Origin: Reyranellaceae bacterium
GTDB lineage: Bacteria > Pseudomonadota > Alphaproteobacteria > Reyranellales > Reyranellaceae
Assembly: GCA_022844045.1 (NCBI GenBank)
Contig: JALHMM010000009.1
Span: 1 to 64,000 of the forward strand
DNA: 64,000 bases
Direction of reading: 5' to 3'
The translations under genes were made by a program, and so were the position numbers. Position 1 is the first letter of the stretch. The number at the start of each line of letters is the position of its first letter. Below are positions 3,831-35,158 of the stretch, in pieces. A model generated the notes under the pieces. That model ran no database searches and was not told where the DNA came from. It worked only from the letters and a program-made list of their open reading frames with translations.

Positions 3831-5372
3831 TTGCATCCGTATATCCACGCCCAGCGCACACCCGACAAGCCGGCCTATGTCATGGCCGGCAGTGGCGAGG
3901 TGGTGACCTATCGCCAGCTCGACGAGCGCTCGAACCGTATCGCGCAGATGTTCCGGGCGCGCGGGCTGAAGCCGGGCGACCACATCGCCATCTTCATGGA
4001 GAACAACCCGCGTTTCTTCGAGATCTGCTGGGGCGCGCAGCGTGCGGGGTTGGTCTACACGCCGGCCAGTTCGCGCTTGACCACCGCCGAGGTCGACTAC
4101 ATCGCCGGCGACTGCGGCGCGCGGCTGTTCATCACCTCGAAGGCGCTGGCGGCCACGGCGGCGGAGCTGCGGTCGCTGATGCCCGGGGTCAGTGCGCGGT
4201 TGATGGTCGACGGCGCGACCGAGGGCTACGAGTCGTTCGAGGATGTCGTGGCGGCGTTCCCGGCCACGCCGATCGCCGACGAGGTCGCCGGCCAGGACAT
4301 GCTCTACTCGTCGGGCACCACGGGCCGGCCCAAGGGTGTGATGACGCCGCTGACCACGGAGAAGATCGACGTCGTGAACCCGGCCTTCGATCTCAGCCGC
4401 AAGCTCTACGGCATCGACGAGAACACGATCTATCTGTCGCCGGCGCCGCTCTATCACGCGGCGCCGTTGCGCTTCAACATGATGATCATGCGCTCGGGCG
4501 GCACCAGCGTCGTCATGGAGCACTTCGACGCTGAGGAATTCCTGAAGCTGGTGCCGAGGTACAAGATCACGCACACGCAGCTGGTGCCGACCATGTTCGT
4601 GCGCATGCTCAAGCTGCCCGACGTGGTGCGCCTGAGACACGACATGTCCTCGCTGCGCTGCGCGATCCACGCCGCCGCGCCGTGCCCGATTCCGGTGAAG
4701 GAGAAGATGATCGAGTGGTGGGGGCCGATCATCTGGGAATACTACGGCGGCACCGAGGGCAACGGGCTCACCATGGCCAACGCGCAGGAGTGGCTGGCGC
4801 ACAAGGGCACGGTCGGCCGCGCTATCGTCGGCAAGCTGAAGATCGTCGGCGATGACGGCGAGGAGCTGCCGGTGGGCGAATCGGGCACGGTGTACTTCGC
4901 CGAGGGCCGCGAGTTCGCCTATCACAACGATCCCAAGAAGACCGCCGAGTCGCGCCATCCCAAGGGTTGGACCACCTTGGGCGATGTCGGCTACGTCGAT
5001 GCCGACGGCTTCCTGCATCTGACCGACCGCAAGGCCTTCATGATCATATCGGGCGGCGTGAACATCTATCCGCAGGAGGCCGAGAACCTGCTGGTCACCC
5101 ATCCCAAGGTGGTCGACGTCGCGGTGTTCGGCGTGCCCAACGAGGATTTCGGCGAGGAAGTGAAGGCGGTGGTGCAGCCGCGCGACATGCGCGAAGCCGG
5201 CCCCGCTTTGGCCGAGGAACTGATGGCGTGGTGCCGCGAGCGGCTGTCGCCGATCAAATGCCCGCGCAGCATCGACTTCGAGGCCGAGCTGCCGCGCCAT
5301 CCCACCGGCAAGCTCTACAAGCGCCTGCTGCGCGACCGCTACTGGCAGGGCCGGACGAGCCGTATTGTCTAA
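3831..5372 (+). CDS. AMP-dependent acyl-CoA synthetase/ligase
   Basis: 513 aa from a TTG start preceded by GGAG at 3820-3823. The adenylate-forming signature YSSGTTGRPKGV is at residues 159-170, YGGTEG at 304-309 and GDVGYVDADGFLHLTDR near 385. The C-terminal PTGKLYKR holds the acyl-AMP-forming lysine (about K494). The enzyme activates a carboxylic acid to the acyl-CoA via an acyl-AMP. Chain length cannot be told. A palindromic repeat separates it from the next co-directional gene. Confidence 0.85.
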   Translation: MHPYIHAQRTPDKPAYVMAGSGEVVTYRQLDERSNRIAQMFRARGLKPGDHIAIFMENNPRFFEICWGAQRAGLVYTPASSRLTTAEVDYIAGDCGARLFITSKALAATAAELRSLMPGVSARLMVDGATEGYESFEDVVAAFPATPIADEVAGQDMLYSSGTTGRPKGVMTPLTTEKIDVVNPAFDLSRKLYGIDENTIYLSPAPLYHAAPLRFNMMIMRSGGTSVVMEHFDAEEFLKLVPRYKITHTQLVPTMFVRMLKLPDVVRLRHDMSSLRCAIHAAAPCPIPVKEKMIEWWGPIIWEYYGGTEGNGLTMANAQEWLAHKGTVGRAIVGKLKIVGDDGEELPVGESGTVYFAEGREFAYHNDPKKTAESRHPKGWTTLGDVGYVDADGFLHLTDRKAFMIISGGVNIYPQEAENLLVTHPKVVDVAVFGVPNEDFGEEVKAVVQPRDMREAGPALAEELMAWCRERLSPIKCPRSIDFEAELPRHPTGKLYKRLLRDRYWQGRTSRIV

Positions 5373-7380: not shown

Positions 7381-9009
7381 GTGCATCGGACCTATGCGAC
7401 AGGGCTCGTGGTGCTCAACAAGTGGAAATGGCTGATCGGTGGAGCGGTGCTGCTGGCGGCGCTGGCGGTGGGCGCGTTCGCCTTCACGTCGGGCGGCGAG
7501 CCGCCGCCGAAGTACCGCACGGTGAAGATCGAGCGCGGCCCGATCACGTCGGTCATCACCGCGACCGGTACGGTCACGCCGGTGACGACGGTCGTCGTCG
7601 GCTCGCAGCTCTCCGGCCAGATCGTCGAGCTCAAGGCCGATTTCAACACGCGCGTGAAGGCTGGCCAGGAGCTGGCGCGCATCGATACCGAGCTGATCGA
7701 GGCGCGGCTGCTCTCGGCGAAGGCCGACCTCGCCGCCGCCGAGGCCGCCGTCATCATGCAGGCGGCGCAGATCGAGAAGGCCGCCGCCGACGTCGAGAAT
7801 TTCCAGGCCACGCTGGCGACCGCCGAGGGTGAATCGACGCGGCGCGAGGGGCTGGCGCGCAGCGGCGCGGGGTCGACCGCCGACGCCGAGCGGGCGCGCA
7901 ACACCGCGCTGGCGACGCGCGCCTCGCTACGCGCCGCCGAGGCCAACCTCAAGGTCGCCGAGGCGCAGCTCCTGAACCTCAGGGCGATCGTGCAGCAGCG
8001 CCAGGCCGCGGTGCGCCAGGTCGAGGTCGACATCAAGCGCTCGGTGATCCGCGCGCCGATCGATGGCGTCGTCGTGCAGCGCTCGATCGACGTCGGGCAG
8101 ACCGTGGCCGCCAGCCTGGCGTCGCCGACCCTGTTCACCGTGGCGCAGGATCTGCGGCAGATGCAGGTCGAGACCACGGTCGACGAGGCCGATATCGGCC
8201 GCGTGCGCGACGGTCTCGAGGTGACCTTCACGGTCAACGCCTATCCCAACGAGCGGTTCGCCGGCAAGGTCGCGCAGGTACGGCTGGCGCCCAACAACAT
8301 CCAGAACGTCATCACCTACACGGTGGTGATCGCCGCCGATAATCCCGACCTCAAGCTGTTGCCCGGCATGACGGCGACGGTGACGATCATCACCGACCGA
8401 CGCGACGACGTGCTAAAGGTCGCCAATGCCGCCTTGCGCTGGAAGCCACCGGGTCGCGCGCCGCAGCAGCCGCAGCCGCAGCCGGGCGCCGGTGGCGACG
8501 AGCCGGGGGCGCCGCCGACGACCCAGGGCGGCACGCCGCGCGGTACCAATCCGCAGGCCAACGCCGATGCGATGAAGAAGGCGCTGACCGAGCAGCTCAA
8601 GCTCACCGACGACCAGCGCAAAGAGCTCGATCGCATCTTCGCCCAGAGCGGCAACGAGATCCGCGCGGTGTTCGCCAGCGGCGCGCCGCCGGAGGAACGC
8701 CGCGCCAAGGTGCGCGCCATCCGCGAGGCTGCCGCCAAGCAGATCGATGCCATGCTCGATGCCGAGCAGAAACCGAAGTACGCCGCGATCCGCGCCGCGG
8801 CGGCGGGCGCGCCGCCGGCCGAGTTGTTCGTCGTCGGTCCCGACGGCCTCGCCAAGCCGGTGCGCATCCGGCTCGGCGTCAGTGACGGCACCACCACCGA
8901 GATCATCACGACGGAGCTCAAGGCGGGCAGCGAGGTGATCGTTGGCGGCGGCCCGCGCGCTACGCCGGCCGCGGCCGACTCCTCCGGACCGCCGCGCCTG
9001 CGCTTCTGA
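7381..9009 (+). CDS. MacA-like periplasmic adaptor (membrane fusion protein) with C-terminal insert
   Basis: 542 aa from the GTG at 7381; GTG codons at 7408 and 7411 are also possible starts. An N-terminal TM helix (WLIGGAVLLAALAVGAFAF) anchors it. Next come a lipoyl half-domain (VGSQLSGQIVELKADF), a long coiled-coil hairpin (about 100-210), the second lipoyl half and a beta-barrel. A Pro/Gln linker at about 355-395 leads to a helical insert with LTDDQ and LDAEQ motifs like Spy/CpxP. The membrane-proximal domain then resumes (AELFVVGPDGLAKPVRIRLG). It should link the MacB-like transporter to an outer-membrane channel. No TolC gene is nearby. Confidence 0.85.
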   Translation: MHRTYATGLVVLNKWKWLIGGAVLLAALAVGAFAFTSGGEPPPKYRTVKIERGPITSVITATGTVTPVTTVVVGSQLSGQIVELKADFNTRVKAGQELARIDTELIEARLLSAKADLAAAEAAVIMQAAQIEKAAADVENFQATLATAEGESTRREGLARSGAGSTADAERARNTALATRASLRAAEANLKVAEAQLLNLRAIVQQRQAAVRQVEVDIKRSVIRAPIDGVVVQRSIDVGQTVAASLASPTLFTVAQDLRQMQVETTVDEADIGRVRDGLEVTFTVNAYPNERFAGKVAQVRLAPNNIQNVITYTVVIAADNPDLKLLPGMTATVTIITDRRDDVLKVANAALRWKPPGRAPQQPQPQPGAGGDEPGAPPTTQGGTPRGTNPQANADAMKKALTEQLKLTDDQRKELDRIFAQSGNEIRAVFASGAPPEERRAKVRAIREAAAKQIDAMLDAEQKPKYAAIRAAAAGAPPAELFVVGPDGLAKPVRIRLGVSDGTTTEIITTELKAGSEVIVGGGPRATPAAADSSGPPRLRF

Positions 9010-9026
9010 TGGTGATGCTCGTTCAT

Positions 9027-9056
9027 CTCCCTCTCCCAGCAAGCGGGGAGAGGGAG
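9027..9056. repeat. Single hairpin of the CTCCC repeat type
   Basis: CTCCCTCTCCC and GGGAGAGGGAG pair perfectly across an 8-nt loop, between the adaptor stop and the ATPase start. The arms are the same as in the element at 35036-35158. It lies inside an operon, so read-through must occur. Confidence 0.7.
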
Positions 9057-9068
9057 AAGAGGGTTGCC

Positions 9069-9821
9069 ATGACCGCCCTGATCGAGACACGCGATCTGGC
9101 CAAGACCTACATCATGGGCGATCAGCGCGTGCGCGCGTTGCGACGCGCGAGCCTGTCGATCGCCCGTGGCGATTTCGCCGCGGTGATGGGGCCGTCGGGC
9201 TCGGGCAAGTCGACCTTCATGAACCTGCTGGGCTGTCTCGACACGCCGAGCAAGGGCGACTACGTGCTCGACGGCGAATCGGTGGCCGGCATGTCGCCGG
9301 ACCAGCTCGCGGCGTTGCGCAATCGCAAGATCGGCTTCGTCTTCCAGTCGTTCAACCTGCTGCCGCGCTCGACCGCTTTGGCCAATGTCTGCCTGCCGAT
9401 GGTCTATGCTGGCGCCTCGCGCGCGGCGCGCGAAGCCAAGGCCAAAGCGGCGTTGGAGACGGTCGGACTCGGCGATCGTCTCGACCATCGTCCAGCGCAG
9501 CTCTCAGGCGGCCAGCAGCAGCGCGTCGCCATCGCCCGCGCGCTGGTCAACGATCCGGCGCTGCTGCTCGCCGACGAACCCACCGGCGCGCTGGATTCGC
9601 GCACCAGCCTGGAGATCATGGCGCTGTTCCAGCGGCTCAACCGCGACGGCCAGACCGTGGTGATCGTCACCCATGAGCCCGATGTCGCAGGTTTCGCCAG
9701 CCGCGTGATCCGCTTCCGCGACGGCAAGGTGGTCGACGATCGGCGGCAGGAACCGAACGACGCGGCCAAGGAGCTCAACCGACTCATCGCCGGCGTCGGG
9801 CAGCACGAGGACGCGGGATGA
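9069..9821 (+). CDS. ABC transporter ATP-binding protein, MacB/LolD type
   Basis: 250 aa from the ATG at 9069; the upstream in-frame ATG lies before the intergenic hairpin. Walker A is GPSGSGKST, the Q-loop region is FVFQSFNLLPRS, the signature is LSGGQQQRVAIARAL, Walker B with the catalytic Glu is LLLADEPTGALDS and the H-loop is VIVTHE. It powers the permease that follows, with which it overlaps by 4 nt. Together with the adaptor it forms a tripartite export pump of the MacAB kind, here with ATPase and permease on separate chains. Confidence 0.9.
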   Translation: MTALIETRDLAKTYIMGDQRVRALRRASLSIARGDFAAVMGPSGSGKSTFMNLLGCLDTPSKGDYVLDGESVAGMSPDQLAALRNRKIGFVFQSFNLLPRSTALANVCLPMVYAGASRAAREAKAKAALETVGLGDRLDHRPAQLSGGQQQRVAIARALVNDPALLLADEPTGALDSRTSLEIMALFQRLNRDGQTVVIVTHEPDVAGFASRVIRFRDGKVVDDRRQEPNDAAKELNRLIAGVGQHEDAG

Positions 9822-11053
9822 GCGTGCTCGAGGCCCTGCGCTCCGCGCTCGACGCGCTGCGCGCCAACCTGCTGCGCAGCGCGCTCACCATGCTGGGCAT
9901 CATCATCGGCGTCACCGCCGTGATAGTCATGGTCGCGGTCGGCTCGGGCGCCAAGGCCAAGGTGATGCAGCAGATCCAGAGCCTGGGCTCGAACCTGATG
10001 ATCGTGATCTCCGGCAGCACGACCTCGGGCGGCGTGCGCATGGGTTTCGGGTCGCGCTGGACCTTGTCCGAGGAGGACGTCAACGCCATGGCGCGCGAGG
10101 TGCCGGCGGTGCAGGTCGCTGTCGGCACGGTGCGCGGCAGCGCGCAGATCGTCGCCGGCGGCGTGAACTGGTCGACCGTCGTGCTCGGCGTCACCGCGGG
10201 CTTTCTCGAGGCGCGCGACTGGGAGCTCAAGAGCGGCCGCGACTTCACCGCCCAGGAAATCTCCGGCGCCGCCAAGGTGATCCTGCTGGGCGAGACGGTG
10301 GTGAAGAACCTGTTCGGCGAGGACGTCGATCCCGTCGGGCAGACGATCCGCGTCAAGTCGACGCCTTTCATGGTCGTGGGCGTGCTGGCGCGCAAGGGCC
10401 AGAACACGTCGGGCCAGGACCAGGACGACGCCGTGCTGGTGCCGCTGTCGACCGCCAAGCAGAAGGTCGTCGGCACCAGCCGGGCCAATTCGCGCGCCGT
10501 CGCCGCGGTGCTGATCAAGGTCCGCGACGGCGAGGACATGGGCGACGCCGAGCAGGCGCTGACCAACCTGCTGCGTCAGCGCCACCGCCTGACGGCGGCG
10601 CAGGAGAACGATTTCTGGATCCGCAATCTCACCGAGGTGGCCGAGACACAGGCCGCCTCGGCGCGCATCCTGGCGCTGCTGCTGGCCGCCGTCGCCGGTG
10701 TGTCGCTGCTGGTCGGCGGCATCGGCATCATGAACATCATGCTGGTCTCGGTCACCGAGCGGACCAAGGAGATCGGCCTGCGCCTGGCGGTGGGCGCGCG
10801 GCGCGGCGACATCATGCGCCAGTTCCTGATCGAGGCGACGACGCTCTCGGCGATCGGCGGCGCCATCGGCGTGGTCCTGGGCATCGGCGGCTCGGTGATC
10901 GTCGCGCGCGCCGCCGGCTGGCCGACGCTGATCCAGCCCGAGGTCATCGTCGTCGCCGTCGGCTTCAGCGCCCTGATCGGCGTGTTCTTCGGCTTCTACC
11001 CGGCCCAGCGCGCGTCGCGCCTCGACCCGATCGAGGCGCTGCGCCACGACTGA
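9818..11053 (+). CDS. ABC transporter permease, MacB/FtsX type
   Basis: 411 aa; its ATG overlaps the ATPase stop (ATGA). The N-terminal helix (LTMLGIIIGVTAVIVMVAVG) is followed by a large periplasmic MacB-PCD domain. Three C-terminal helices follow, with the conserved MNIMLVSVTERTKEIGLR and a terminal PAQRASRLDPIEALRHD. MacB-type transporters do not pump through the membrane; they drive periplasmic substrates into the exit duct by mechanotransmission. The substrate is unknown. Confidence 0.9.
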   Translation: MSVLEALRSALDALRANLLRSALTMLGIIIGVTAVIVMVAVGSGAKAKVMQQIQSLGSNLMIVISGSTTSGGVRMGFGSRWTLSEEDVNAMAREVPAVQVAVGTVRGSAQIVAGGVNWSTVVLGVTAGFLEARDWELKSGRDFTAQEISGAAKVILLGETVVKNLFGEDVDPVGQTIRVKSTPFMVVGVLARKGQNTSGQDQDDAVLVPLSTAKQKVVGTSRANSRAVAAVLIKVRDGEDMGDAEQALTNLLRQRHRLTAAQENDFWIRNLTEVAETQAASARILALLLAAVAGVSLLVGGIGIMNIMLVSVTERTKEIGLRLAVGARRGDIMRQFLIEATTLSAIGGAIGVVLGIGGSVIVARAAGWPTLIQPEVIVVAVGFSALIGVFFGFYPAQRASRLDPIEALRHD

Positions 11054-11065
11054 GCCCGGTGACTG

Positions 11066-11288
11066 CCGCGGACGTTGCGGACGTTTTGTCCGCGGTGCCC
11101 CCTACAGAGCCGCGTCCAGGGGCGCGGGACCCTGCGGACGACAAGGACGTTCCCTAACCTCCCCCCCTTTTATATCCCCCCTCCTCTTTTTTTCTTTCTT
11201 CAACAGAGGAGGGATGAGGGAGATAACGTCCATAACGTCCGCAGTGCTGGTTTATCGGGCCCTATGCTGCGGACGTTATGCGGACGTT
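11066..11288. repeat. Cluster of GCGGACGTT repeats with hairpins
   Basis: Exact GCGGACGTT occurs at 11068-11076, 11077-11085, 11269-11277 and 11280-11288, and its complement AACGTCCGC at 11234-11242. A tandem ATAACGTCC pair sits at 11223-11240 and a related AAGGACGTT near 11143. CCGCGGAC (11066-11073) can pair with GTCCGCGG (11088-11095). The cluster fills the gap between the MacB-like permease and the convergent sulfatase, and no protein can be supported in it. Its function is unknown. Confidence 0.75.
11179..11213. other. Polypyrimidine hairpin inside the repeat cluster
   Basis: CCCTCCTCT and AGAGGAGGG form a perfect 9-bp stem around a 17-nt T-rich loop. It is preceded by a C run, TTTTATAT and more C. 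The strand bias is unlike the surrounding DNA. It could be a terminator or part of a structured RNA; orientation cannot be decided. Confidence 0.5.
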
Positions 11289-11307
11289 CTGTCAGCCCAG
11301 TCGGCGC

Positions 11308-12843
11308 CTACTCGCGCCGCGCCGAGAGCCCCATCACCGTCTTGGGCGGATATTTGCGGAAGGTCGCGAGGTGGTCGCGCATGCCCTGCTGGAACGCGTC
11401 CACATAGGCGAGCTTGCGCGTCATGTAATTGTGCTGCTCTTTCGGGTCGAGATAGAGGTTGTAGAGCCTGGCGTAGGTGAAGCGGTCCAAGGTGCCGGTG
11501 AACCCGCCCGGCCCCGCCGCGTCGCTCGCGTCGTCGCTGATCGCCGACAGCACCATCTTGTACTCGCCGCAGCGCATCGCCGAGAACGTCTTCACCAGCC
11601 AGTAATGGTGATACTTGCGATTCGACAGCCCGTCATCGGCGAGCAGAAACGAGGTCTGGTCGACGCCGTCGATGTAGCGGTCGCTCGGCAGGCGCGCGCT
11701 CTCGCCGGCGATGCCCAGCAAGGTCGGCAGGATGTCGTTGAAGTCGAACATGCCGTCGCTCTGGCGGCCCGCCTCGATCATGCCCGGCCACATCATCAGA
11801 CCCGGCACGCGTACGCCGCCTTCCCAGGTCGAGCCCTTGGCGCAGCGGAACGGCGTGAACGCGGCGTCCGGCCAAGTCTCCATGTGCGGACCGTTGTCGG
11901 AGGAGACGAAGATCAGCGTGTCCTCGAGCTGGCCGGTACGGCGCAACGTCTCGACCAGGCGGCCCATGATCGCGTCGAGCTCGAGCAGCGTGTCCTTGTA
12001 GGGATGCCGCGCCGGCGACTTGCCGAGGAAGCTCTCGTGCGGGTAGTTGTCGAAATGGGCGCCGCGCGTGCAGTGGTACAGCAGCCACGGCTTATCGCCG
12101 CCGGCCATGCGCTCGATGAAACCCTCGGAATAGCGACACCATTTCTCGTCGAGCAGGGACAGGACGGGGATCGTGACCTCCTCGACATCCTGCGCCTTGC
12201 CGCCCTTGGTGGCGTGCACGAAGCAGCGGTTGAACGGCATGTTCTTGATCCACTCCGTGCGCGCGTCGGAGTAGACGATCTCCGGGAAGAAGTGCGGATC
12301 GCGCCACTCCGTGTACATGTCCGAGACGGAGAGGAAGCCGTAGAAATCGTCGAAGCCGACGTTCTGGGCCTGCGAGGTTTCGTTCTCGCCGACATGCCAC
12401 TTGCCGACGGCCTGCGTCGTATAGCCGGCGTCCGACAGCAGTTGCGCGATGGTGATCTCGCCCTGCAGGCCGCCGGGTTCGCCGTACATCGGCGGGCGGT
12501 GCAACCCGTGCCGGTTGGGCACGCGGCCGGTGAGCAGCGTGGCGCGCGATGGCGAGCAGGTCGGCTCGGAATAGCAGGAGGTCAGCTGCAGGCCGTTGCG
12601 CGCGACCCTGTCGAAGTTAGGCGTCGGCGCGCCCACCGCCACGCCGCCGCCGTAGCAACCGAAATCGCCCCAGCCGACATCGTCCATCAGGAAGATCAGG
12701 ATATTCGGCCGCTTCTTGCGCCGCGCCAGGCGGTCCGCGAGCTTGCGCCGTGCGACCTCGACCTGCTCCTTGTGCACGAAGCCGGGCTCGAGATGCGGCG
12801 CCACCCGTACGGTGGCCGATGCGATCGGGTCGAACGGGGGCAT
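11308..12843 (-). CDS. Sulfatase (arylsulfatase family)
   Basis: 511 aa. ILIFLMDDVGWGDFGCYGG near residues 48-66 supplies the first metal aspartates (D54, D55). CSPSRATLLTGR begins at C96, the cysteine that a formylglycine-generating enzyme would oxidise to the catalytic aldehyde. SSDNGPHMETWPD supplies later ligands. The family hydrolyses sulfate esters. There is no signal peptide, so a cytoplasmic site or exotic export is implied. No maturase gene is in the window. A DUF815 ATPase lies 28 bp upstream on the same strand. Confidence 0.88.
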   Translation of the reverse strand: MPPFDPIASATVRVAPHLEPGFVHKEQVEVARRKLADRLARRKKRPNILIFLMDDVGWGDFGCYGGGVAVGAPTPNFDRVARNGLQLTSCYSEPTCSPSRATLLTGRVPNRHGLHRPPMYGEPGGLQGEITIAQLLSDAGYTTQAVGKWHVGENETSQAQNVGFDDFYGFLSVSDMYTEWRDPHFFPEIVYSDARTEWIKNMPFNRCFVHATKGGKAQDVEEVTIPVLSLLDEKWCRYSEGFIERMAGGDKPWLLYHCTRGAHFDNYPHESFLGKSPARHPYKDTLLELDAIMGRLVETLRRTGQLEDTLIFVSSDNGPHMETWPDAAFTPFRCAKGSTWEGGVRVPGLMMWPGMIEAGRQSDGMFDFNDILPTLLGIAGESARLPSDRYIDGVDQTSFLLADDGLSNRKYHHYWLVKTFSAMRCGEYKMVLSAISDDASDAAGPGGFTGTLDRFTYARLYNLYLDPKEQHNYMTRKLAYVDAFQQGMRDHLATFRKYPPKTVMGLSARRE

Positions 12844-35035: not shown

Positions 35036-35158
35036 CCCTCTCCCCGCGCGCGGGGAGAGGATCGGGGTGAGGGGTGGTTTCAGGTTGCGTACAGCGATCG
35101 AGCGACACTTGATAAAGCCCCTCACCCCAACCCTCTCCCCGCCTGCGGGGAGAGGGAG
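35036..35158. repeat. Palindromic intergenic element, CCCTCTCCCCGC type
   Basis: CCCTCTCCCCGC..GCGGGGAGAGG hairpins at both ends flank CGGGGTGAGGGG and CCCCTCACCCC. It has the same two-hairpin plan as family A but a different arm sequence. It lies inside the BMP-amidase operon. Confidence 0.8.

Follow-up and report, generated by a model that had tools for sequence, protein, structure and literature searches.

A probable orphan iteron array of the phage and satellite replication type between two convergent genes of a Reyranellaceae bacterium

A cluster of nine-nucleotide repeats in Reyranellaceae bacterium is most probably an orphan iteron array, a replication cis-element of the type of P4 crr and the PICI/SaPI origin. 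The cluster lies in a 64,000-nt stretch of DNA (GCA_022844045.1, contig JALHMM010000009.1, positions 1 to 64,000), which is called the window here. It shares its architecture with P4 crr, and arrays of this architecture are associated with primase-helicase genes of phages. In the window it stands as a single copy away from any such gene, and it is absent in a congeneric genome.

Results

Layout of the array

As listed in Table 1, the array lies entirely in the gap between the stop codons of two convergent genes, so its location is non-coding, as the original prediction had stated. There are five exact copies of GCGGACGTT, four on the + strand (11068, 11077, 11269 and 11280) and one on the - strand (11234-11242), and three near copies, GCGGACGAC at 11134, AAGGACGTT at 11143 and AACGTCCAT at 11225. 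The GGACGTT core occurs seven times in 11070-11288, five times on + and twice on -. The copies are paired with a period of 9 or 11, and their order on the + strand is a forward pair, a degenerate forward pair, the spacer with its hairpin, a reverse pair and a forward pair. On the + strand the spacer, about 70 nt long, is rich in C and T (11152-11221), and its GC content is 50%, against 68% in the flanks. This recount bears out the five exact nonamers with near copies, in tandem pairs of both orientations, that were first noticed in the sequence, and likewise the strand-biased C/T tract and the perfect 9-bp hairpin. The inner left pair belongs to a 20-nt stretch with 85% complementarity to 11225-11244. 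Folding is strong, with z scores against shuffles of -7.0 for 11130-11245 as DNA and -5.9 for 11040-11310 as RNA, because the facing arms pair with each other.

Table 1. Coordinates of the array, its neighbours and the related loci (G000, the window's genome; G001, G002 and G003, congeneric genomes; C1 D5_N/array locus, a locus of the C1 D5_N gene with its array or of a C1-type array; features without a locus handle are in window coordinates)
Feature	Location	Strand	Remark
Intergenic space between convergent genes, containing the array	11054..11307	.	254 nt
Left neighbour, MacB-like ABC permease gene (MacB_PCD + FtsX)	9818..11053	+	ORF, Pfam; syntenic in congener G003
Right neighbour, sulfatase-family gene	11308..12843	-	ORF, Pfam
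Outer left iteron pair	11068..11085	+	GCGGACGTT GCGGACGTT, period 9
Inner left iteron pair, degenerate	11134..11151	+	GCGGACGAC AAGGACGTT, period 9
Spacer between facing arms	11152..11224	+	C/T-rich, relatively AT-rich
Perfect 9-bp hairpin, 17-nt loop	11179..11213	+	arms CCCTCCTCT 11179-11187 / AGAGGAGGG 11205-11213
Inner right iteron pair	11225..11242	-	GCGGACGTT ATGGACGTT (5'-3' on -)
Outer right iteron pair	11269..11288	+	GCGGACGTT-AT-GCGGACGTT, period 11
Second D5_N gene (primase-polymerase) in own genome	L350 (G000:C58) 433-2904
C1 D5_N/array locus	L233 (G000:C1) 8662-10276
C1 D5_N/array locus	L249 10344-10435
C1 D5_N/array locus	L250 9694-9781
C1 D5_N/array locus	L248 7563-7649
C1 D5_N/array locus	L251 8265-8469
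C1 D5_N/array locus	L254 2106-2190
C1 D5_N/array locus	L255 4660-4853
C1 D5_N/array locus	L252 6282-6370
C1 D5_N/array locus	L353
Element with CCCTCACCC / GGGTGAGGG arms	window 35052-35140
Element with CCCTCACCC / GGGTGAGGG arms	L202 16782
Element with CCCTCACCC / GGGTGAGGG arms	L244 10599
Element with CCCTCACCC / GGGTGAGGG arms	L247 1544
Element with CCCTCACCC / GGGTGAGGG arms	L253 1676
Facing ATGGACGTT array by terminase genes	L269 3552-3650
Facing ATGGACGTT array by terminase genes	L278 3302-3391
Facing array of phage contig IMGVR_UViG_3300009092_000009	L282 12775-12935		unit GGACGTTC, common to both arrays
Facing array of phage contig IMGVR_UViG_3300009092_000009	L283 1564-1655		unit GGACGTTC, common to both arrays

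Rarity and the array-less allele

Is the cluster a product of chance? All five exact copies of GCGGACGTT in the 64-kb window are confined to 221 bp. In a unit-agnostic scan that covered 1.90 Mb of the 6.4-Mb genome, the array was the sole place where a 7-mer occurs at least seven times, in both orientations, within 235 bp. The cluster is therefore not due to chance. Searching the genome and its relatives for the repeat cluster, as had been proposed with the original prediction, gave, within the thresholds applied, no second copy in the own genome, in 75 genomes of the family or in 385 of the class. In the own assembly no further array with unit GCGGACGTT was found. A host multi-copy palindrome with this unit was rejected on these results. 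Exact GCGGACGTT pairs occur in at least 119 stretches in a genome-wide scan, mostly as single pairs without inverted copies; the tandem-only arrays L157, L139 and L174 were set aside for having no facing arrangement. The DNA search for plasmid or annotated-phage homologues of the array gave chance matches only, and tblastn with an idealised translation of the array gave no matches.

In the congener G003 both flanking genes are present at high identity, and the right flank (11280-11460) is 93% identical. The gap between macB and the sulfatase gene is about 200 nt shorter there and holds a single GCGGACGTT at the junction. The window array is therefore an accessory segment bounded by the 9-mer. 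Note that G003 fits insertion and loss equally, since an exchange between the first direct copy and the last one would leave the same single unit. Homologous gaps lacking the repeats had been named beforehand as counting against the original prediction. That point applies by half: one homologous region, that of G003, was found without the array, and it speaks for accessory status rather than meaninglessness.

Facing arrays at primase-helicase genes

What is the usual setting of such arrays? Tandem GCGGACGTT in IMG/VR led to the phage contig L175. Its eight copies of the core occur in both orientations and surround a spacer that contains a C-run and a hairpin; the array stands directly 3' of a primase/helicase-like gene of 877 aa. 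At 13 loci with this protein, the L175 contig included, facing arrays lie just downstream, and their unit depends on the clade (TGCGGACGTT, TCCGGACGTT, GCAGACGTTT, GCCGAACGTTT). IMG/VR was also scanned for facing GGACGTT arms. Their neighbours encode a Prim-Pol/D5 primase (L272), a VapE-like helicase (L276), a Toprim/DUF7146 protein (L277) and an NrS-1-polymerase-like protein (L287); the repeats of L144 adjoin a gene for an AAA_25 helicase-like protein, and those of L165 and L176 lie within O-like replication-initiation genes. There are exceptions. Facing ATGGACGTT arrays of L269 and L278 stand directly upstream of the terminase small and large subunit genes, and of those of L282 and L283, which belong to one phage, one stands near a serine recombinase gene and the other near an exonuclease gene. 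The copies in L268, L279, L280 and L281 are fewer or scattered and look incidental. The core of the window array aligns best with the array of the VapE phage L310, and 5 of 500 shuffles gave as high a score for the spacer; judged from this alignment, the best of many comparisons, the likeness of the two spacers appears modest. Separately, a facing tandem CGCGAAACA array, apparently without a replication gene, was seen in another phylum (L088 6593-6747, a Victivallales MAG).

The viral scans described above used the window's own unit, and for this reason a unit-agnostic search was run, with a detector for facing tandem 9-mers of any sequence around relatives of primase-helicases. Among 55 viral loci, which include near-duplicates and some members of the unit-selected L175 protein family, 26 have such 9-mers between -250 and +500 nt relative to the match end. 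Per DNA, there are 27 arrays in the 41 kb near the match end versus 4 in the other 343 kb, and three of these four sit 321-339 nt upstream of the match end. The same detector found no array in three block-shuffled sets and one in 880 kb of unrelated bacterial loci. The viral units are diverse, for example CTGACGCAC, CAGTGCCGC, TGTTTCCTC and TGTAGCCGA. Named phages with an array are AcaML1 (unit GTCTGACGG), RcRios, Streptococcus phage SW6 and vB_Pae_U5; BL94 and BF503P1 have none. By this detector about half of the viral primase loci are without an array. Primase-helicase genes thus commonly bear a sequence-independent signature at their 3' end, namely facing tandem 9-mers whose unit drifts while the layout is kept.

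Arrays within the genus

The window's genome has two D5_N primase-helicase genes, each followed by a facing array with a unit other than GCGGACGTT. On contig C1 the array, roughly 90 bp with unit GTGAAGGAT, begins 11 nt after the D5_N stop; on contig C58 the distance from the stop is 21 nt, and the unit is GTGACGGAT, placed about a hairpin rich in CGCGCG. The C1 gene is genus-specific and occurs together with its array also in G002. Arrays of the C1 type without a primase lie between ordinary genes in all of G000, G001, G002 and G003 (at least nine copies), and therefore orphan arrays have a precedent in this genus. The four units mostly agree within a copy and differ between copies (TGTGAAGGAT, GGTGAAGGAT, GGTGAGGGAT, TGTGAGAGAT), and a core of type CGACCGTCCGCGCGCGTGACG is kept in either orientation. 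The search of the genus for VapE-family genes found none, and hence no resident donor of the VapE type.

Other repeats of the genus were also met. A palindromic element with CCCTCACCC / GGGTGAGGG arms, its interior partly kept, forms a separate dispersed family in G000 and G003. In G002 there are ERSEG-type repeats (GTCGAGCGCAGCGAGACAT, translation HPERSEGSR; L353 (G002:C4) from about 2523, and L008 about 1422-1500), some of them next to the macB homologue, at the place that the sulfatase junction takes in the window genome.

Discussion

Comparison with known replication elements

The closest match is found in the satellite phage P4 (X51522), whose crr has annotated ori type 1 repeats at 4314 and 4323 (+), 4366 and 4384 (-) and 4398 (+). 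This crr lies directly 3' of alpha, its first repeat pair has period 9, a T/C-rich stretch separates the facing arms, and a second such repeat block is present. The window array is also non-coding and built of period-9 iterons, two forward, a T/C-rich spacer, two reverse and then forward again. However, the unit is GCGGACGTT instead of TGTTCACC, the spacer is about 70 nt instead of about 35 nt, there is no alpha-like gene nearby, and P4 has crr as two 120-bp direct copies plus a separate ori. In the pri-rep-ori arrangement of PICI/SaPI, two iteron sets flank a presumed melting region (PMC6092414; PMC7581432). SaPI Rep uses its C-terminal domain to recognise iterons that stand directly downstream of its own gene, and Cch2 of SCCmec binds repeats downstream of its own gene (PMC7581432). 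The window array likewise has two iteron sets around a spacer, but there are no rep, integrase or other satellite genes around it, and its spacer counts as AT-rich only when set against the 68% GC of the genome. The arrays of D5, VapE and Toprim phage loci (L310, L213, AcaML1, RcRios, and the own C1 and C58) consist of facing tandem 8-9-mers across spacers of roughly 40-130 nt that often contain a hairpin, as in the window; their units differ and they adjoin their own primase gene, whereas the window array is an orphan. Short tandem iterons with a period of about 9 in two opposed sets, and a hairpin-bearing spacer that is locally AT-richer in relative terms, are therefore shared with P4 crr and PICI. 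A position 3' of a cognate primase-helicase is not, since the neighbours are a MacB-like permease and a sulfatase, and because of this lack of adjacency to a cognate initiator the array is not classed as a functioning member of that group.

Alternative origins

Could the cluster be a host element with no link to replication? REPtron-type dispersed palindromes consist of a gene-linked palindrome and dispersed orphan copies. The C1-type arrays also have a gene-linked copy plus dispersed orphans, but the linked gene is a D5 primase-helicase and not a Y1 transposase, and the window array is single. A dispersed palindromic intergenic element of REP or MITE type, with the tandem 9-mers as terminal repeats, would suit the convergent-gene site, the present/absent allele, the direct 9-mer copies as bounds with one copy at the G003 site, and the genus's multi-copy palindromes of roughly 90 bp with tandem 9-10-mer arms. 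It is nevertheless unlikely. Within the thresholds of the searches, multiple copies of the window array were found neither in the genome nor in the genus, and the wider family and class search agrees; the multi-copy elements of the genus match the array just 3' of the D5_N primase-helicase (G000, G002); and the order of sites agrees with P4 crr.

Another thought is that the array was made in place, by slippage or template switching at a quasi-palindrome that multiplied a pre-existing GCGGACGTT, so that the unit came from the target and marks no protein site. The exactly one GCGGACGTT at the G003 junction would suit this, but one unit would remain just as well if the array had been lost through recombination of its outermost direct copies, and for this reason the idea of a target-copied unit was demoted to an alternative. 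Slippage accounts neither for the 70-nt pyrimidine spacer with its hairpin nor for the phage order of the array. Separate arrays of one phage genome have a common unit (L175; L282/L283), as expected for a reader acting in trans, and we consider formation in place very improbable. We give just as little credence to an operator, or a structured RNA or terminator, serving both flanking genes as a shared terminator or regulator array, in spite of the 3' space of two convergent genes and the strong fold. The array is missing in G003 while both genes are kept. There is one terminator-like site (11066-11080) against 0.6 in shuffles, a number within the range of chance, no sigma-70-type promoter-like site was found in the array by the promoter scan, and no Rfam family matched it above the gathering score. 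Moreover, the arms are period-9 tandem repeats like annotated iterons of DNA replication. Of the readings first offered for the cluster, the structured RNA is not supported, while the protein-binding array and the mobile-element remnant are both supported in a more specific form, which would be an iteron array as seen with phage and satellite primase-helicases, orphaned in a chromosome.

Proposed mechanism and present state

How might an orphan iteron array of this type work? In its two opposed sets, tandem 9-bp sites face each other across a locally AT-richer, hairpin-bearing spacer with a pyrimidine strand. Normally such an array lies just 3' of a primase-helicase gene of D5, VapE or Toprim type, whose product would occupy the 9-mers, build up on each arm, melt the spacer and so initiate replication in cis. 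At the window locus there is the cis part alone, as a present/absent segment in a convergent intergenic space. Since no primase-helicase gene lies near the array and no other array with unit GCGGACGTT was found in the assembly, a cognate protein can only be hypothesised. That the window array is bound or unwound, replicates or acts as a decoy, and by which route it arrived, is what we infer; it would presumably work like a P4-crr/PICI element if a matching initiator entered the cell, and recognition in trans would be limited to an incoming element whose initiator reads GCGGACGTT. The orphan-origin reading has points against it: the missing primase-helicase neighbour, the degenerate inner left pair, the modest spacer likeness to L310, the viral primase loci without an array and the arrays beside non-primase genes (L278, L282/L283). 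Among a fossil, a decoy and a site fired in trans, the likeliest and most economical present state is that of a passively carried stray. On plasmids, lambda iterons plus oop block lambda replication, and deletion of the iterons abolishes the effect (PMC3349717). This case is a precedent for interference in trans, not evidence for the window locus. A bolder proposal is that chromosomes of the genus carry non-autonomous replication-site elements, namely orphan iteron arrays, some of them dispersed around a resident D5 primase-helicase, that are fired or bound in trans by phage or satellite initiators, act as decoys or minimal replication parasites, and spread with their units changing in concert. 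We regard it as unlikely.

Implications

With the orphan iteron array as the preferred reading, an unexplained repeat cluster becomes a recognisable cis-element, and the layout signature can help to find where phages and satellites that are uncultured are likely to replicate. The open literature, which omits most subscription journals, yielded no description of such orphan arrays. Is a stray site of phage type a benefit to the chromosome, a burden or of no consequence, as a decoy, by over-replication in situ or as a fossil? Orphan arrays raise this question for the organism, and if a phage with the same unit infects, the window iterons could matter in trans.
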